Of a stretch of DNA of 64,000 nucleotides, positions 1,036-16,555 are shown one piece after another (within the stretch, counting starts at the first letter, position 1; every line of letters starts with the position of its first letter). The DNA comes from Nitrospiraceae bacterium. GTDB lineage: Bacteria > Nitrospirota > Nitrospiria > Nitrospirales > Nitrospiraceae. The notes under the pieces were generated by a model, which worked only from the letters and a program-made list of their open reading frames with translations, made no database searches and had not been told where the DNA came from. The stretch covers positions 310,001 to 374,000 of the forward strand of contig CAKKRE010000016.1 of assembly GCA_919902505.1 (NCBI GenBank). Reading direction: 5' to 3'. A program made the translations under genes and the position numbers.

Positions 1036-2904
1036 CTATCCCTCATGAGACGGAGACGGCAGAAAGCCTGCCTCCTTCTCCGCACTCACATCTTCATGCA
1101 TCACCGGCTGCTGCCCGCGCTGACAGACCCAAAACAGGAAGAATACCGCCCCCCAAAACAGGGCCATGTTGATCGTGACCATTTTTGCCGCGAATCCAAG
1201 CGATGGCGTAAACGCCCAGGGGGACGTATCCGGCATCAACTCGTTGACGTGCCAGGCCAACCGGCCGGAAGAGCGGATATACCCCATCAACCCCATGACC
1301 CAGGTGAACGCGGCCGCTAATCCAAACAAGCCAACCATTCCGCGAACCGAAATCTGGCCCCACTGTACAGGACCGTGGATCGTGGCACCACGCAACATAC
1401 GCCGGTTCAGCAGCAAACCCAGCGTGACCACGAGCAATGTGGTGATGGCCTGCGGGCCGGACAGCCCTACGCGCAGACTGGCAGGAAGATAAAATCCATA
1501 GACCGATAGACCGATGATGTGCGCCGTTCCGAGGCCGAACAGAGCCCCCAGGATAACATTTCCTGCTTTGGCCCACGAGATCGTCATCGTCCGATTTGCG
1601 CGTCGATAAAAAATGTAACTCAAGGCGGTGATGCAGATCATCACGTTGACCGCGCCGTTCTTCGACGACATGACGCCGTAGTTTCCAATGACCGGATGCT
1701 GCGCCCCGCCCATGGCTTTGACTTCTGTCCCCGTCATCAAAATGGTGTGAGGCGTCAACCAGATAAACAGACAACCCGTCAGCGCAAGCAGGAGATACTG
1801 ATAGTAGGGCTGATAGCGCTCACCGCCGCGAATCCGTCCCATGCTCTGCCAGAGATAGTAATTCACGCCGAGAAAGAGCGCGCCGATCAGAAGCGCCTGC
1901 ACCACGAAGAGCCAGGTCAGCAACCCGCCCATCATCGTGACACCCATGCTTTGACTGTACGCATAGACGGAACGCATCAACCAATAACCGGCGAACGGCA
2001 TCGGCAACAAGGCGCAGACCGTCACAAACAAGAACACGTAGCCGACCCAATCGTAATACGCTCGCTCCTCCTGACTCTTGCCGGAAAAAAACCGATAACA
2101 GGCATAGGCCAGGACGACCGCGCCACCCGACATGATGTCCGCGAGGAATCGATGCAAGTTCAGGGGATTCCAGAGTGCCGAGCGGAGCAGATGCCAGGGA
2201 TTCCCCAAATACCGCCCCTGTCCGTCGACGCCGGAGGGCGCCATCATGAAGGCGGACCAGGCATTGGCCAATAACAACAGCGACGTGCCGAACACCACCG
2301 CAAGCACGCCAATCGACAGGTGGACCCACTTCGATCCCGGCGCTGCCAGACGATCCCAACTGTAGTAGTACGCGATCGTCAAAAATGTCGTCCCGACAAA
2401 CACGAGTGCGTACAGAGGCATCATGACCTTGAAGGTGCCTCCCATGTACTGCATGAAGCTGGGATACAGCGTGATAAACATCGTCAGCATCACGCTCCCC
2501 ACCGCTGCGGTCACGGAAAGCGCGAGCAGCGCCACCTTCAACAGATCTTGCGCCAACCCGTCATAACGCACGGCCATCGCGGGATTCCTCGCGACCAACC
2601 CTAGAAATTCCAAGAGGACGCAAAAGATCGGCAAGGCCAGGACGAACCCCCCGAAATACGTATGCTGCTGAATGATAAACCACATCAGCAACCGGCTATC
2701 GAGCGACCCGACTTGCGGATAGTGGTTCTCATTCGCCGTCGGCGCCGAAGGACCGTCCGGCACTCCGGGCGTATGGAAATACACATCTGTGGAGGGGTCG
2801 GCGGCCACCAGCGGTAGCGGACTCAGCAACAGAACGCTCGCAGCCACCAGCAACGCGCACAGCAACAACAGGATCATGGACGGAAGCGGAAGGCGTTTGA
2901 TCAT
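1036..2904 (-). CDS. Cytochrome bd-like oxidase subunit I (divergent)
   Basis: 622 residues with about 14 hydrophobic segments. An N-terminal signal-like helix and a periplasmic stretch come first, then a bd-type helix with a candidate haem-ligand His (QQHTYFGGFVLALP). Further signatures are LLLLANAWSAFM (compare NANSWM of CydA), LHRFLADIMSGG and PMPFAGYWLM. It is longer than typical CydA and has an extended C-terminal half. Divergent bd-like subunits are a known expansion in Nitrospira and have been proposed as terminal oxidases or quinol modules; the substrate is unproven. The start at 2904 overlaps the stop of the upstream membrane-protein gene (ATGA), so the two are translationally coupled. 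No CydB-like partner is obvious. Confidence 0.82.
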   Translation of the reverse strand: MIKRLPLPSMILLLLCALLVAASVLLLSPLPLVAADPSTDVYFHTPGVPDGPSAPTANENHYPQVGSLDSRLLMWFIIQQHTYFGGFVLALPIFCVLLEFLGLVARNPAMAVRYDGLAQDLLKVALLALSVTAAVGSVMLTMFITLYPSFMQYMGGTFKVMMPLYALVFVGTTFLTIAYYYSWDRLAAPGSKWVHLSIGVLAVVFGTSLLLLANAWSAFMMAPSGVDGQGRYLGNPWHLLRSALWNPLNLHRFLADIMSGGAVVLAYACYRFFSGKSQEERAYYDWVGYVFLFVTVCALLPMPFAGYWLMRSVYAYSQSMGVTMMGGLLTWLFVVQALLIGALFLGVNYYLWQSMGRIRGGERYQPYYQYLLLALTGCLFIWLTPHTILMTGTEVKAMGGAQHPVIGNYGVMSSKNGAVNVMICITALSYIFYRRANRTMTISWAKAGNVILGALFGLGTAHIIGLSVYGFYLPASLRVGLSGPQAITTLLVVTLGLLLNRRMLRGATIHGPVQWGQISVRGMVGLFGLAAAFTWVMGLMGYIRSSGRLAWHVNELMPDTSPWAFTPSLGFAAKMVTINMALFWGAVFFLFWVCQRGQQPVMHEDVSAEKEAGFLPSPSHEG

Positions 2905-9666: not shown

Positions 9667-10593
9667 TTAGTGCTGATGCTCCACCAACGGCTCAATCTCC
9701 ACGGGATGGCCAAGAGACTCCAGCCCGAAACGAGGATTGTCCATGACCCTGTAGGCAGTCCGAGTTCCCCTAGGAGCAGGAAGCGCCACTTGTTCCACCG
9801 TCGTCCCATCCGGACCGACCGTAATCGTCCGCGTCACCCCGGGCCCTGCCTGCGGATGCCAGACTACCATCTGATAGGTCCCAGGCGGGACATTCTCAAT
9901 CCTGAACGCGCCTTGGTCATCCGTCACCGCGTAGTAGGGGTTGTTCACGGCCATCGCCCAGCTTTCCATGTAGGCGTGAAAGCCACACTGCATATAAAAC
10001 GTCCGCCGCCCCTTGTTCAGATAGACCGGTCCTACCAGAGACTTTCCCGGTGCATGGTTGTGAATCGCATGCATGTTTCCCCGTTGATGCTGTTGATTTA
10101 GAATCAAGGGCGTATTGAACAACACTCGCGCCCCGGCCTCGGGGGAAGTTTCATAGCCCTGAATGTCGTGCATGACCGGGTCCATATTGACCACTTCCAC
10201 CGCATGGCCGTTGCGCACGATCGTCATCCAGGGGCCGAACATACAATCCCGCGCCTCGATCAGGGGCACCGAGAGATCGAATGGCTTCCCGGACTCAACC
10301 CCTTCGAGCAGCACCACGGCATTTTTCAAACCGCTCTCGGCGTTTACGATGAAGTCGCGCAGGAGACGCCAGCCCTTCCCGTTCGAAATCCGCCCACAAT
10401 AGGTCGGGTCCGGGAAGGTGATGAGATTAAACGCCTTCGGGTCCGGAACGGCGCCCGACAAGGTCACTCGTCCTTCAAGCGTCCCGCCATGCTGAACCTC
10501 GACAATATCATAGGCAGAGACGGGGGGCACGACCTGACACAACCAGACGACGAGCGCAAGACAACGGAGCAGGCTGGAACGAGTCAATCTCAT
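9667..10593 (-). CDS. Secreted amicyanin-like cupredoxin with carboxypeptidase-regulatory-like tail
   Basis: 308 residues with a signal peptide ending near VVPPVSAYD. It shares family features with the gene upstream: HGGTLEGRVTLSG, ITFPDPTYCGRIS, the Cu-ligand His in NMDPVMHDIQGYET near residue 142, and CGFHAYM near residue 201 (Cys-X2-His-X2-Met). The C-terminal segment (GAFRIENVPPGTYQMVVWHP) is the same beta domain as in the 6600 protein. It is predicted to be a periplasmic type-1 copper electron carrier. The gene lies 29 bp downstream of its paralog and is probably a tandem duplicate. Confidence 0.8.
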   Translation of the reverse strand: MRLTRSSLLRCLALVVWLCQVVPPVSAYDIVEVQHGGTLEGRVTLSGAVPDPKAFNLITFPDPTYCGRISNGKGWRLLRDFIVNAESGLKNAVVLLEGVESGKPFDLSVPLIEARDCMFGPWMTIVRNGHAVEVVNMDPVMHDIQGYETSPEAGARVLFNTPLILNQQHQRGNMHAIHNHAPGKSLVGPVYLNKGRRTFYMQCGFHAYMESWAMAVNNPYYAVTDDQGAFRIENVPPGTYQMVVWHPQAGPGVTRTITVGPDGTTVEQVALPAPRGTRTAYRVMDNPRFGLESLGHPVEIEPLVEHQH

Positions 10594-10622: not shown

Positions 10623-11531
10623 TTAGGGAACCTGACGCTGCAATGTCGGACGAATATCCACAACCTTTCCAAGTGACTCAGGGCCGTAATGCGGGTTCTG
10701 TTCGATTTCATGCACGCTTCGCCGCCCCTTCGGAGCCTTAAAGTCGAAATCGACGGTCGACAGCCCATTTTCCGTGACGGTCACCTTCTTCTGCAACATC
10801 GTGCCGACCCCGGGGTGCCAGACCATCAGCGTATAGTCGCCCGATGGGACGTCCGTCAAACTGAAGGTGCCGTCGTCCCCCGTCAGCGCGAAATAGGGGT
10901 TATCGACGGCGAATCCCCAGCTCTCCATATAGGCATGGAACCCGCACCGCATCACGAACATCCGCCGTCCCTTGGTCATATGAATTACTTCGGTGACCGG
11001 CTCGCCCGCGAGATGCTCATGACTTTCCGCGCTCACGAGACGTTTGTGGTGGGGATTCATCGGCAACGGGGTGTTGAACAGGACGCGAGGACCGAGTTGC
11101 GAGGTCTCATAGGCCTGAACGTCGTGCATGACCGGATCCATGTTCATAACCGCCACTTCAGAACCATCTTTCACAACCGTGACAAAAGGAAGGAACCGGC
11201 AATCACGCGCTTCGATGGTCAAGGGTTCGAACTTGAATGGCTTCCCCTTCGTCACATCGGTCAAAACGACGACGACATCCTTCAGACCTTGGCTGGAAGC
11301 CATTGAAAATTCATCAAGAACTCGCCAACCCGTTCCGGTCGATATGCGACCGCAATAGACCGGATCCGGAAAGGTGATCATGTTATATCCCTTCGGGGTT
11401 GGTTTTCCCCCGGTCATGGTGACTGTTCCTTTTATGGTACCGCCATCCATGGCCGCGATCTCCTCATAAGCTCACGATGGAGACCAGCAGACACTGACAG
11501 CGCAGAGCACGGCACTGCCGACTAATCGCAT
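10623..11531 (-). pseudogene. Cupredoxin paralog interrupted by an in-frame TGA after the signal peptide
   Basis: ATG 11531 has a good ribosome site (CCGGAGGAATGAC) and opens a signal peptide, MRLVGSAVLCAVSVCWSPS. This is followed in the same frame by TGA at 11474-11472. After the stop the same frame continues AYEEIAAMDGGTIKGTVTM, which aligns with the paralog's AYDIVEVQHGGTLEGRVTL, and runs intact to 10623 with the copper ligands (NMDPVMHDVQ, CGFHAYM). So only the stop separates secretion signal from mature domain. A downstream ATG at 11450 with GAGGAG upstream could give a 275-residue cytoplasmic product. The choices are recent nonsense mutation, sequencing error or readthrough; I favour mutation or error. 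The homologous domain itself is well conserved. Confidence 0.75.
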
Positions 11532-11624
11532 GTCATTCCTCCGGAAATAAGTATGATATCGATACCGGCAGTACCGACAGAAAGTCAGACATATCGGCTC
11601 ATCATACACAATCCCCGGCGGACA

Positions 11625-11656
11625 ACAAAAGGGGGGAGCCCTTTCAGGCTCCCCCC
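11625..11656 (-). terminator. Rho-independent terminator after the multicopper oxidase gene
   Basis: A 10-bp perfect GC-rich stem (arms 11631-11640 and 11647-11656, GGGGGGAGCC / GGCTCCCCCC) with a 6-nt loop, followed on the minus strand by TTTTGTTG. It lies between the oxidase stop at 11690 and the next cupredoxin gene, so the oxidase is mostly monocistronic. Confidence 0.85.
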
Positions 11657-11689: not shown

Positions 11690-14600
11690 CTACTTGGCCG
11701 CGACAGGAATCGCGTGCGCAACCGGCTGCTCAACCGCGGCACTCTTGGTGCCGGCGCTCGCGCCAGCCAATGGCAGCAGTCGCGTATCACCGGACGGCAA
11801 TACCCGCACATAACCCCACTGACCGGACTGCGAGTACGGCAAGCGCTGGTTGCTGTACACATAATCCCCGGGCAGACGATACATTCCACCCGCCGAAGGG
11901 AGGAACGCGTCGATCGTCTCAGAACCGGAGAACTCCACGACACTGATCAGGTCAGCGCCCCGCATAAACGGCTCGATCGGCCATTCGTGCTTCTCAACAC
12001 TGAACATGCCGTTCTGCTCGTTGCTGACACCCAACACATGAATGCGCACCGGGTCTCCGGCATGCGCCTCGATGACTGGGGTGGCCGGATCTTCCGGCTT
12101 GTCCGCCTTACAAGGTTGGAACACCTTGCCGAGCGAGCAACCCTGCTCTTCACGGAACTTGTACGGTTCCGACCGGTAATTGACGCCGGTCAAGCCCGCC
12201 ACGTTCTGCACGTAGGGCATGAAGCTCGTGCCGATGATGTTATCTTCATCCTGGAAGAACAACGCCACGTCACGATAGTTTGCCCGCATTTCATTGCCCG
12301 GCACCGAGCGATCGATGATGACATCGGCCGCCCAGGCATTCTTATTGGACAGATCCGCGCCGGTCTTGGGATCACGATACTTCGATCCCTTGGGTCCGAC
12401 GACGACGGCACCGAACAACCCGTTCCTCGGATTGGTCATCACATTGCCCCAATCCCACACCAACGAAGTGGTCTCGCCGTTAAACGGATCCGCATAGTAC
12501 GTGTACTCACGCTCGCCCCCCGGTGCGACCGTCTGGTCCCCCGGATTGTTCCCTACGTTCGCGCCCATGGAATCCTTCGGATCGAAGGCCAGGCCGATCG
12601 CAGAGAAGGAGGCCTTGCTGTCTTTCATCTTGTTCTTCAAATGGACCTTGACGCAATCACCGCTGTTCACACGCAGCGTCAGCGGCATCGGGTGTGCACC
12701 GCCGGCCACTTTCGCGGTGTCCTCTTCCAACGCATAGATTTTCGCTTCAGCGTTGGTCATGAGGATCCGCCGCTCAAAGTCCACTTCGATGGATTCCGGC
12801 GCCTTGGCATTGAACTTCATGCCGGCGTAGTCCATCGCGACGACGTTGAACTGCTTCACGGGAGCATCGGCAGGACAGACCGGCAGAGGCTTCGGAATCT
12901 CCCCTTTGATCGAGAAGCCCGCGGGCAACTTCTTCAAATCAGCCTGCTCCTTATCCAATACACGGATGATGCCCCAGCCACCCTCGGAGAACTTCGAGGA
13001 CCGACCGTTGAAGTGAATGTAATCGCCGGCTTGATGCCGTGACCCACCCGCCTCAGGAACCACCAGGTCATACCGCTCAGCGATACCGATATGGATCGAG
13101 TTCTTTCGATTGGCATCCGACGCATACCGCTCGGTCCAGAACGTGTGGCCGGACAGGGTCCAGACCATCGACTCGTTCATGAGGGTGTGCAACAGACGGA
13201 ACACCATCGTGTCGCCGACATAGGCACGCAAGGTCGGCGTGTACGGATCACCGTGGACCAGGCTGCTGAAAATCTGTGACGAATCAGGGTTGGTCGCCAA
13301 CCGCTGCGCGACCGGCGCCGCCCTGAAATTCAAGCCGCTGCCGGTGGTATGCGTACCACCGTTCAAGAACGGCATCGGCGTCATATAGATCTTCTCCGGC
13401 ATCATGAACGAGACGGTCTTTCCTGCCTCGAGCGCTACTTCGATCGGCTGCCCGGGAGGATTGCCCGCCGTCACGATGTTGACGGTGTGCGGCACGGTGT
13501 CGTGCACTTGGACCATCAATTCACGGAAGCTGTTGTTCACGCCATGACCGACCGGCTCGTTCGTGTGAATGTCCGCGATCGGTCCGCTGCGGATCAACTT
13601 TCCAGTCTTTGGATCATGATACGTCGATCCAACCGGTTCGGCGATGAAGGTGCCGAAGCCGCCGTGCGGCCAGGTGGTCGCGCCGAACGCGTGGTCGTGC
13701 CAGAACACGGTACCCACGTCCGCATCGACCCAGAACCGCTGACGCACGAACTCGACCGTGACGATGTCATTGGCCGGGTGATCGTTCTTCAGCCCTTTGG
13801 CTAACGTGATCGTATTGCCATTGATCGCCTTGATGCGGGAAATTTCATTCCCCTTCACATTGTCGGCACCGACGAGAAGGAGTGTGCCGACATGGAACGG
13901 CTTGGCATTCTTCACCGTGATCGTGTTCGCGCCCTTCTTAGCGGCGGCGGTCACGACGGTGTTCATCGGGGCGGGAAGCCCCTTCGCATTCTTCTTCTCC
14001 AGCATCGTGAACGGACGCACGGATTGCTCATAGGAGAATCCGGTGATCACGCCGTCGGACGCCTGGTTGTCGAACTGCAGGAAATGCCAATGGGTGTTGA
14101 TCTTCGACGACTGGAAGTTGGTGTAGTCATCGTCGTCCCACTCGCTGGTCAGGGTCCAGTCCAAGCAATCGTAGATGTTGCCACGGACGACCAGCGGATA
14201 CTTCAGATCATCGTTCTTCCGAATCTCCGCCTCTTCTTCGTGCAAGACATAGATCAAGCCGTTCGGATCGATGACCGGCGGCTCCTTGCCCGTCTTCTTG
14301 GCGATGGTGATCGGGAGCTTAATGAAGTGGACATTGTAGTGCTTCCGTCCGGCATTCTCCGGGCAGAGACTCCAATTGCCGTTTTCGCCAGGCAGAGCCT
14401 GATCGACGCTTTCCTCACCGTTGGCATCCCGGCGGATCATCTCCAACCAGGGTGCACCCACGTGGTTCGGGGAGAACATGACGCGTCTCCCGAAATGCGG
14501 GGTGAGGTGAGGCCAGGCCACTTTACCGGTCAACGGCTCGAACGTGATCGGATGCCGCTTGCCCGGATGGGTCGACTTATACTTTGGATTGTCGATCGTG

Positions 14601-16555
14601 CTTTCCGGTTCGCTCAATGCACGGGTGCCTTCCCAGGCCCAATCCAACACCGTGGCATCATAGGACACGGTCTGTCCCTTTTCGTCGTTCTTGTGTCCCG
14701 GCTTGCCCATCGTCGGGAGCTGCATTTCGACCCAGTCCTTGATCGTGATCGTGGCCGGATTGGACTTCCAATCGCTCTTGCCCTTCTCGACGATCTTGAA
14801 GGACTTGCCGAACCAATCCACAGTCTGACCGACTAACTTATCCGACGTGATCGGACCCTTGATACGACCTTTCCGATCAGGCAACTCAAGCAGATCCGGC
14901 ATGACGTCATTACGCATGTCGCCCTGTTGAAGGGTGTTGTATACCCGCCAGTATCCCCACATGCCCGCCACATAATGGTGCGCCACGTGGCAATGGAACA
15001 GGAAGTCGCCGGCCAACTGCTGGCACAGGCCGGAGCCGCACTCCGTCTCGAGGTCCAACGCTTCCGACGGCCCAATGACTTCGACGTCGACACGATCCGT
15101 CTTGGCACGGATGACCGGATACTTGACCGGTCCGTTTCCGGCGGTCGTCCACAGATTCATGTCATCAATGGCGCGCGGACTGCGTGGCCACCGGATGGTG
15201 CCGCCATGCGGGTGGTGGCTATGGAACACTTCCGATCCGCCATGGACCAGGCGGAACTTCGCCGGGTCGCCCATGTACGAGCGCGGGATCGTGGGAGACG
15301 GATCGCCGAAGGTGTACGAGCTGTACCCCATCGACTCGTCTTCGAATCCGAAGTACTCGTGCTGCACGTGCATGTTGTTGATTCCGAACGGCTCGCTGCG
15401 ATAGTTGATCGCACGACCGCCCGGACGATAGGCGTCGGTCAGCGGGTCACGCTGAGGAAGAAAGTCCCCTTTCTTATTGACGGGGCGGAAGGCTTCGTCG
15501 CCGACCTCGTGATAGTACAGGACGAATTCACGGAAGTCCGGACCGGTCCCGTTCTTGATCATGACCTGCCAGCCGCTCGAAGTGGGCGTGGGCGCCCCGC
15601 TCCCCAACGCTTCCAGATATTCGGATCCGCGCGGCTCGACGACAAAGGACCCGAAGAGGCCCATCACGGTCAACTCGCGGTCATTGGCGAAGGTGTGGAA
15701 CTGCCGGACACCTTCCTGGGTGCTCGGATGAATGTACCATTCGAACTCTCCGCTCTTATCCTTCTGGACGATGCTATCGGAGTTCGTAGTGGCGGCGGCG
15801 GCACCGGTGGCGCTCACCACCATGCTGGAGCCATGGATGTGAAGGCTGACGTCTTCGCCACCCTCCAACTTGTTGCTCAACTTGATCTTGACGCAATCCC
15901 CCTGGTTGCCGCGAATCGTCAGCGGCTGAATCCACTGGGCCTGCACACCGGGAATCACCGCGCCTGGATCGAAGCCTTCCTTGTCACGGGCTTCCCGATT
16001 CTTCGTTTCTTCCGCCCGAACCTTGTCGAGATTCTCGTCCAGCGTATACATATAGCCGGGATAAAAATCGAGCCACTGGTTCAGCGTGATCTCGACGTTG
16101 ATCGCCGACACGTTGTATTGCTTGACCGGTGCGGAAGCCGGGCACTTCCCGCCTCCCGACAATGCCACTGGCTCCACTCGTGGGTCGGACATCAACAGGA
16201 GGTCCTGACCGCCTGCCCCATATTGGTGCATCATGGTCTGGGTATTGAACATACCCGTATTGACCTGCTGCGCCTGCGGGTCATGGGTCAAATGCTCCAT
16301 GATCCGTTGGTGCTGCTGCTCAACCATCGCAGAACGCTCGGGCTTTCCAGCCATCGCATCTTCGACGATCGTCTGCCCCTTCAACTTCTCCGCCCAAGAC
16401 GGGAGTTGATGGGACATCGCTGTTTGTTGCGGCGCCGCATGGTCCACATGCGGCTGAGTTTCAGCCGATGCGGCTAGCGGAAGACACACAAGCGCACCAC
16501 CAGCGATAACGCTGAGGGCGCGCGATGTGACACGAGTGAACCAATGACAATCCAT
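11690..16555 (-). CDS. Giant multicopper oxidase, MnxG/MofA-like
   Basis: 1621 residues with a signal peptide (VIAGGALVCLPLAASAE). All four multicopper oxidase copper motifs are present but in permuted order: HSHHPH (HxxHxH) near residue 447, HCHVAHHYVAGM (HCHx3Hx4M with axial Met) near 522, then HWH near 822 and WHDHAFG near 953. The same order, trinuclear half-sites split with the type-1 site early, is what I recall for MnxG, the bacterial Mn(II) oxidase. The length is close to MofA of Leptothrix. The remaining third (about 1100-1600) holds further cupredoxin-like domains. The product would be extracytoplasmic and oxidise metals or organic donors with O2. Substrate is not determinable; Mn(II), Fe(II) or Cu(I) are candidates. 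It has its own promoter and terminator, and its AAGGAGG ribosome site precedes ATG 16555. Confidence 0.88.
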   Translation of the reverse strand: MDCHWFTRVTSRALSVIAGGALVCLPLAASAETQPHVDHAAPQQTAMSHQLPSWAEKLKGQTIVEDAMAGKPERSAMVEQQHQRIMEHLTHDPQAQQVNTGMFNTQTMMHQYGAGGQDLLLMSDPRVEPVALSGGGKCPASAPVKQYNVSAINVEITLNQWLDFYPGYMYTLDENLDKVRAEETKNREARDKEGFDPGAVIPGVQAQWIQPLTIRGNQGDCVKIKLSNKLEGGEDVSLHIHGSSMVVSATGAAAATTNSDSIVQKDKSGEFEWYIHPSTQEGVRQFHTFANDRELTVMGLFGSFVVEPRGSEYLEALGSGAPTPTSSGWQVMIKNGTGPDFREFVLYYHEVGDEAFRPVNKKGDFLPQRDPLTDAYRPGGRAINYRSEPFGINNMHVQHEYFGFEDESMGYSSYTFGDPSPTIPRSYMGDPAKFRLVHGGSEVFHSHHPHGGTIRWPRSPRAIDDMNLWTTAGNGPVKYPVIRAKTDRVDVEVIGPSEALDLETECGSGLCQQLAGDFLFHCHVAHHYVAGMWGYWRVYNTLQQGDMRNDVMPDLLELPDRKGRIKGPITSDKLVGQTVDWFGKSFKIVEKGKSDWKSNPATITIKDWVEMQLPTMGKPGHKNDEKGQTVSYDATVLDWAWEGTRALSEPESTIDNPKYKSTHPGKRHPITFEPLTGKVAWPHLTPHFGRRVMFSPNHVGAPWLEMIRRDANGEESVDQALPGENGNWSLCPENAGRKHYNVHFIKLPITIAKKTGKEPPVIDPNGLIYVLHEEEAEIRKNDDLKYPLVVRGNIYDCLDWTLTSEWDDDDYTNFQSSKINTHWHFLQFDNQASDGVITGFSYEQSVRPFTMLEKKNAKGLPAPMNTVVTAAAKKGANTITVKNAKPFHVGTLLLVGADNVKGNEISRIKAINGNTITLAKGLKNDHPANDIVTVEFVRQRFWVDADVGTVFWHDHAFGATTWPHGGFGTFIAEPVGSTYHDPKTGKLIRSGPIADIHTNEPVGHGVNNSFRELMVQVHDTVPHTVNIVTAGNPPGQPIEVALEAGKTVSFMMPEKIYMTPMPFLNGGTHTTGSGLNFRAAPVAQRLATNPDSSQIFSSLVHGDPYTPTLRAYVGDTMVFRLLHTLMNESMVWTLSGHTFWTERYASDANRKNSIHIGIAERYDLVVPEAGGSRHQAGDYIHFNGRSSKFSEGGWGIIRVLDKEQADLKKLPAGFSIKGEIPKPLPVCPADAPVKQFNVVAMDYAGMKFNAKAPESIEVDFERRILMTNAEAKIYALEEDTAKVAGGAHPMPLTLRVNSGDCVKVHLKNKMKDSKASFSAIGLAFDPKDSMGANVGNNPGDQTVAPGGEREYTYYADPFNGETTSLVWDWGNVMTNPRNGLFGAVVVGPKGSKYRDPKTGADLSNKNAWAADVIIDRSVPGNEMRANYRDVALFFQDEDNIIGTSFMPYVQNVAGLTGVNYRSEPYKFREEQGCSLGKVFQPCKADKPEDPATPVIEAHAGDPVRIHVLGVSNEQNGMFSVEKHEWPIEPFMRGADLISVVEFSGSETIDAFLPSAGGMYRLPGDYVYSNQRLPYSQSGQWGYVRVLPSGDTRLLPLAGASAGTKSAAVEQPVAHAIPVAAK

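Follow-up and report, generated by a model that had tools for sequence, protein, structure and literature searches.

A private in-frame TGA in the signal peptide of a cupredoxin-like gene of Nitrospira, probably a recent nonsense substitution

The question raised by this locus is whether a TGA lying in frame within a signal peptide is read through, newly acquired or erroneous. The gene lies in the window, a 64,000-nucleotide stretch of DNA from a Nitrospira genome that has the completely sequenced N. defluvii (FP929003) among its relatives. ATG 11531-11529 on the minus strand opens a frame of 19 hydrophobic codons (MRLVGSAVLCAVSVCWSPS). TGA at 11474-11472 follows in this frame, which then continues (AYEEIAAMDGGTIKG...) and stays open to a stop at 10623 (Table 1). 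A preliminary description had reported this stop behind a signal-peptide start and the frame continuing beyond it, both of which were confirmed from the sequence. The locus is not a chance open frame, because genus orthologs (83-96% identity) keep this signal peptide and have TGG where the window has TGA. When the window was inspected by eye against close relatives, over some 52-57 kb of coding sequence that could be compared, this TGA was the sole gene-disrupting stop. The other stops picked up by the scan (3966, 28515, 35938, 47905, 51331, 51467, and 54044) belonged to antisense frames, false upstream starts, and frame overlaps, and a TAG flagged in a more distant paralog (L005) was the terminal stop of that gene itself.

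Table 1. Features of the stop-bearing gene and its surroundings, with positions in the window.
Position	Strand	Feature	Remark
1036-2904		Cytochrome bd-like oxidase (PF01654)	
9667..10593	-	Tandem paralog, 308 aa, 49% identical, ...PVSAYDIVEVQHGGTLEG	Intact signal peptide; directly downstream
10623..11450	-	Open frame of 275 aa with a cupredoxin-like mature domain and a carboxypeptidase-regulatory-like C-terminal domain	Leaderless from ATG 11450
11460..11465	-	GAGGAG, possible Shine-Dalgarno site for ATG 11450	Glu-Glu codons in orthologs
11472..11474	-	In-frame TGA	TGG (Trp) in genus orthologs
11475..11531	-	Ancestral signal peptide, 19 codons, MRLVGSAVLCAVSVCWSPS	Kept in orthologs
11537..11542	-	GGAGGA, Shine-Dalgarno-like, ahead of ATG 11531	
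11601..11610	-	Conserved TGTGTATGAT, extended -10-like element (putative)	From alignment; intact here
11631..11656	-	Terminator-like hairpin, GGGGGGAGCC/GGCTCCCCCC, with TTTT behind it; conserved	Between oxidase and gene
11690..16555	-	MnxG-like multicopper oxidase, 1621 aa	Intact, upstream

To place the stop in its evolutionary context, the region was aligned across 29 orthologs at 73-96% identity, together with loci of named genomes. Wherever the N-terminus survives, the signal peptide of the orthologs is uninterrupted, supporting the earlier view that a genuine signal peptide begins with these 19 codons. Every genus ortholog examined carries TGG (Trp) at the codon, within SPSWA|YEE or close variants, including the four nearest relatives (95-96% identical), and more distant orthologs have W, S, L, R or others there. 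None of the aligned orthologs has a stop at this codon, and the window genome alone has TGA. In addition, many orthologs, some with as little as about 50% identity, have W[AS]Y[EDQ] where the signal peptide ends. Since TGG sits in a conserved signal-peptide end among the relatives, the ancestral protein was exported and the stop, as the alignments show, is derived and unique to the window genome. The pattern that would have all orthologs stop here and start at ATG 11450 is contradicted by the uninterrupted orthologs with TGG. The preliminary description had itself reasoned that a sense codon in orthologs would indicate mutation or error, and by that reasoning the TGG of the genus orthologs points to one or the other. 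A conserved stop with constraint on both sides, as expected of a programmed or functional readthrough gene, was not found, and a disrupting mutation set against functional orthologs, as expected of a pseudogene, was. The signal-peptide segment of the window gene further differs at several positions in this genome alone (L to S, the stop, V to A, and T to M), but these differences are only suggestive because the signal peptides of relatives also change fast.

Selection on the mature frame was assessed from branch changes, reconstructed codon-wise by parsimony on a tree of the oxidase and the paralog. In the mature frame, 6 nonsynonymous changes stood against 26 synonymous ones on the window branch, a proportion similar to that of the pooled functional branches (18:106; Fisher p=0.59) and different from the dead copy of genome G092 (22:21; p=0.007). 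The frame downstream of the stop was therefore under purifying selection until recently on this branch, in agreement with the earlier claim that the mature domain is intact. Because constraint held over most of the branch, the stop must be young, erroneous or tolerated. Such selection behind the stop, on the very branch that carries it, is expected of a readthrough gene, and the relaxed constraint of a pseudogene was not detected, so that the gene is at most a very young pseudogene. Counting against the explanation favoured below, constraint on the downstream frame is just as compatible with the full protein still being made via some readthrough.

The history of the gene in the genus bears on how much its interruption matters. 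An intact ortholog was present in 21 of the 28 other genus genomes, with five cases of loss and two genomes (G069 and G113) left out of the assessment. Three of these cases (L204, L205, and L206 in G089, G080, and G052, respectively) retain only C-terminal remnants between the oxidase and the paralog. The ortholog in G092 (L210; G092:C106, near 1233-2045) is a clear pseudogene, with an ATG-to-ACG change at its start, about 80 codons deleted from the N-terminal region, and H109Y, and its neighbour genes are 97-99% identical to those of the window. In G110, the ortholog (L203; G110:C583) is frameshifted around codon 45 and again around codon 160, and these shifts may be assembly errors because this genome is 66% complete and in about 600 contigs. 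The paralog was kept in all five cases (G052, G080, G089, G092, and G110). Repeated loss in the genus thus indicates that the first cupredoxin-like gene is dispensable, and its loss next to a retained neighbour suggests that the two are not equally needed. The tandem paralog of the window has the same layout as the stop-bearing gene without a stop, and the frame is alignable to it, as originally proposed, at 49% identity. Moreover, the window genome holds three intact relatives with signal peptides (49-54% identity, the tandem paralog included), which may cover for the stop-bearing gene.

Based on these observations, the stop most likely reflects an ordinary recent nonsense mutation or an erroneous base, and not a novel way of decoding. 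The best explanation, with a probability of roughly 0.7, is that a nonsense substitution recently turned TGG into TGA in this genome alone. It would have struck the signal peptide of a periplasmic cupredoxin-like gene that is dispensable and belongs to a bd-like-oxidase/multicopper-oxidase cluster, and the stop would then probably be an early step of the gene loss seen repeatedly in the genus. Nonsense substitutions in bacteria are common and short-lived (PMC7918605). The present case resembles those of Belinky et al. 2021 (PMC7918605) in being an in-frame stop in a constrained gene, found via close relatives and apparently short-lived, whereas that study kept only stops common to at least two species, which limits artefacts, and here a single genome is concerned. 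A sequencing or assembly error, with TGG in the real genome and the gene intact, deserves weight: only a single assembly (84 contigs) shows the stop, a lone transition separates it from the conserved codon, nothing else in the window is disrupted, and the frame behind the stop evolves normally. On the other hand, the window is otherwise free of disruptive errors against the four relatives, a random base change creates a stop in only about 3.5% of cases, and the genus shows an independent tendency to lose this gene. On balance, such an error is unlikely, though with an appreciable chance.

With regard to the protein, the preliminary description had held it to be a periplasmic copper protein, which is plausible but not proven. 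His109, Cys169, His172, and Met175, candidate ligands of a type 1 copper site, are invariant, and Foldseek listed plastocyanins, amicyanin, and nitrosocyanin as weak matches (all E above 0.001) to a middling AlphaFold model (pLDDT 69.5). No Pfam cupredoxin matched the protein, and its C-terminal domain is carboxypeptidase-regulatory/fn3-like. From the invariant residues and these weak matches, the protein is likely a cupredoxin and plausibly a copper protein.

Readthrough had been proposed as necessary for secretion, a requirement not borne out given no recognisable suppressor, a private stop, a repeatedly lost gene, and three further intact relatives in the genome. A tRNA-Sec or a UCA-anticodon tRNA would be the mark of a selenoprotein or of UGA reassignment. 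No tRNA-Sec scored above the family cut-off in the genome, and no stop anticodon, UCA included, occurred among the 42 tRNAs found. Among the 58 listed frames of the window, TGA is also the most frequent stop codon, closing 30 of them, and the genus orthologs have Trp at the position; although the codon is indeed TGA, its reading as selenocysteine or by general reassignment thus has next to no probability. The single tRNA-Trp (CCA) has, by inspection, a 5-bp anticodon stem (TCGGT/ACCGA, paired at all five positions) and not the 4-bp stem known from PMC13092985. Most genus members, those with TGG among them, share its exact sequence, which rules out a suppressor tRNA-Trp specific to this genome, and A24 in its D stem is common to relatives keeping TGG. 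General recoding is excluded, and basal leakiness alone remains.

Functional readthrough through such leakiness is possible. In E. coli reporters, TGA leaks more than the other stops, chiefly by insertion of Trp, and is leakier with G next (PMC11126739); the context here is TGA-G with Trp as the ancestral residue, and there is no positive support beyond this context. Under this alternative, leaky reading of UGA by tRNA-Trp(CCA) would export enough protein, Trp would restore the ancestral sequence, and the stop would act as a down-regulator, in line with the constraint on the downstream frame. A regulatory role has been proposed for nonsense codons in constrained genes (PMC7918605). However, the stop is kept in no relative, the gene is dispensable, the tRNA-Trp is that of relatives retaining TGG, and no special element was identified, which makes it improbable. 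The locus thus shares UGA at an ancestral Trp with G next with known UGA-to-Trp readthrough (the E. coli reporters and the 4-bp-stem tRNA-Trp), but differs in being a single site in one genome, with an ordinary 5-bp-stem tRNA-Trp and a stop that is not conserved. A literature search for papers on bacterial UGA readthrough in signal peptides returned nothing relevant.

Under the favoured nonsense substitution, the product depends on the start sites. The estimated Shine-Dalgarno energies were about -9.5 kcal/mol for ATG 11531 and about -8.6 kcal/mol for ATG 11450, both usable. ATG 11450 has its own AGGAG site at a spacing of 8-9 nt, a feature not stressed in the preliminary description, and the 21 nt between the end of the TGA and this codon are few enough for reinitiation. 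Ribosomes starting at ATG 11531 would halt after 19 codons, and some may initiate or reinitiate at ATG 11450, so that the main product is most likely a leaderless 275-aa protein. This protein would stay cytoplasmic, and its periplasmic function would be lost or strongly reduced. Alternatively, the gene may have been re-addressed, with ATG 11450 and its AGGAG now giving a functional cytoplasmic copper protein. This fits the constrained mature frame and the novelty of this ATG relative to the four closest relatives, which have ACG there; however, ATG is also found at that codon in three orthologs with intact signal peptides (L018, L026, and L079) and hence need not be compensatory, export signals are present in the intact orthologs examined, and loss of the gene recurs. 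Re-addressing is therefore very improbable. Equally slight is the chance that the opal codon works as a translational dial, in which rare UGA-G decoding as Trp by the ordinary tRNA-Trp would export some full-length protein, and ATG 11450, through initiation or reinitiation, would make a cytoplasmic form. By itself, the locus represents an ordinary private nonsense substitution together with a caution for annotation, as a gene caller would start the protein at ATG 11450 and miss its secreted ancestry.

Upstream of the gene, a strongly conserved hairpin with a T run, followed by TGTGTATGAT, occupies 11601-11656 between the oxidase and the gene in genus members. By appearance, this region may represent a terminator and a promoter of the gene's own, and a pattern scan of the minus strand reported neither the hairpin nor the -10-like element.

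By gene content, the surroundings recall the conserved cluster of nitrite oxidizers described with the Nitrospina gracilis genome (PMC3578206, Fig. 6), in which a bd-like oxidase, an MnxG-like (there Mn-oxidase-like) multicopper oxidase, and cupredoxin-like proteins also occur together. The MnxG-like oxidase of the window scored 134 bits against the NCBIfam MnxG model, far under its cut-off of 3100. It is 94-99% identical across the genus, and most genomes contain further copies at about 68-75% identity. One extra multicopper oxidase copy (L227; G080:C12:138419-143272) is out of frame in its middle part, with an open frame on either side, and the six in-frame TGAs reported for it stem from this part (two compensating indels or errors), not from recoding.
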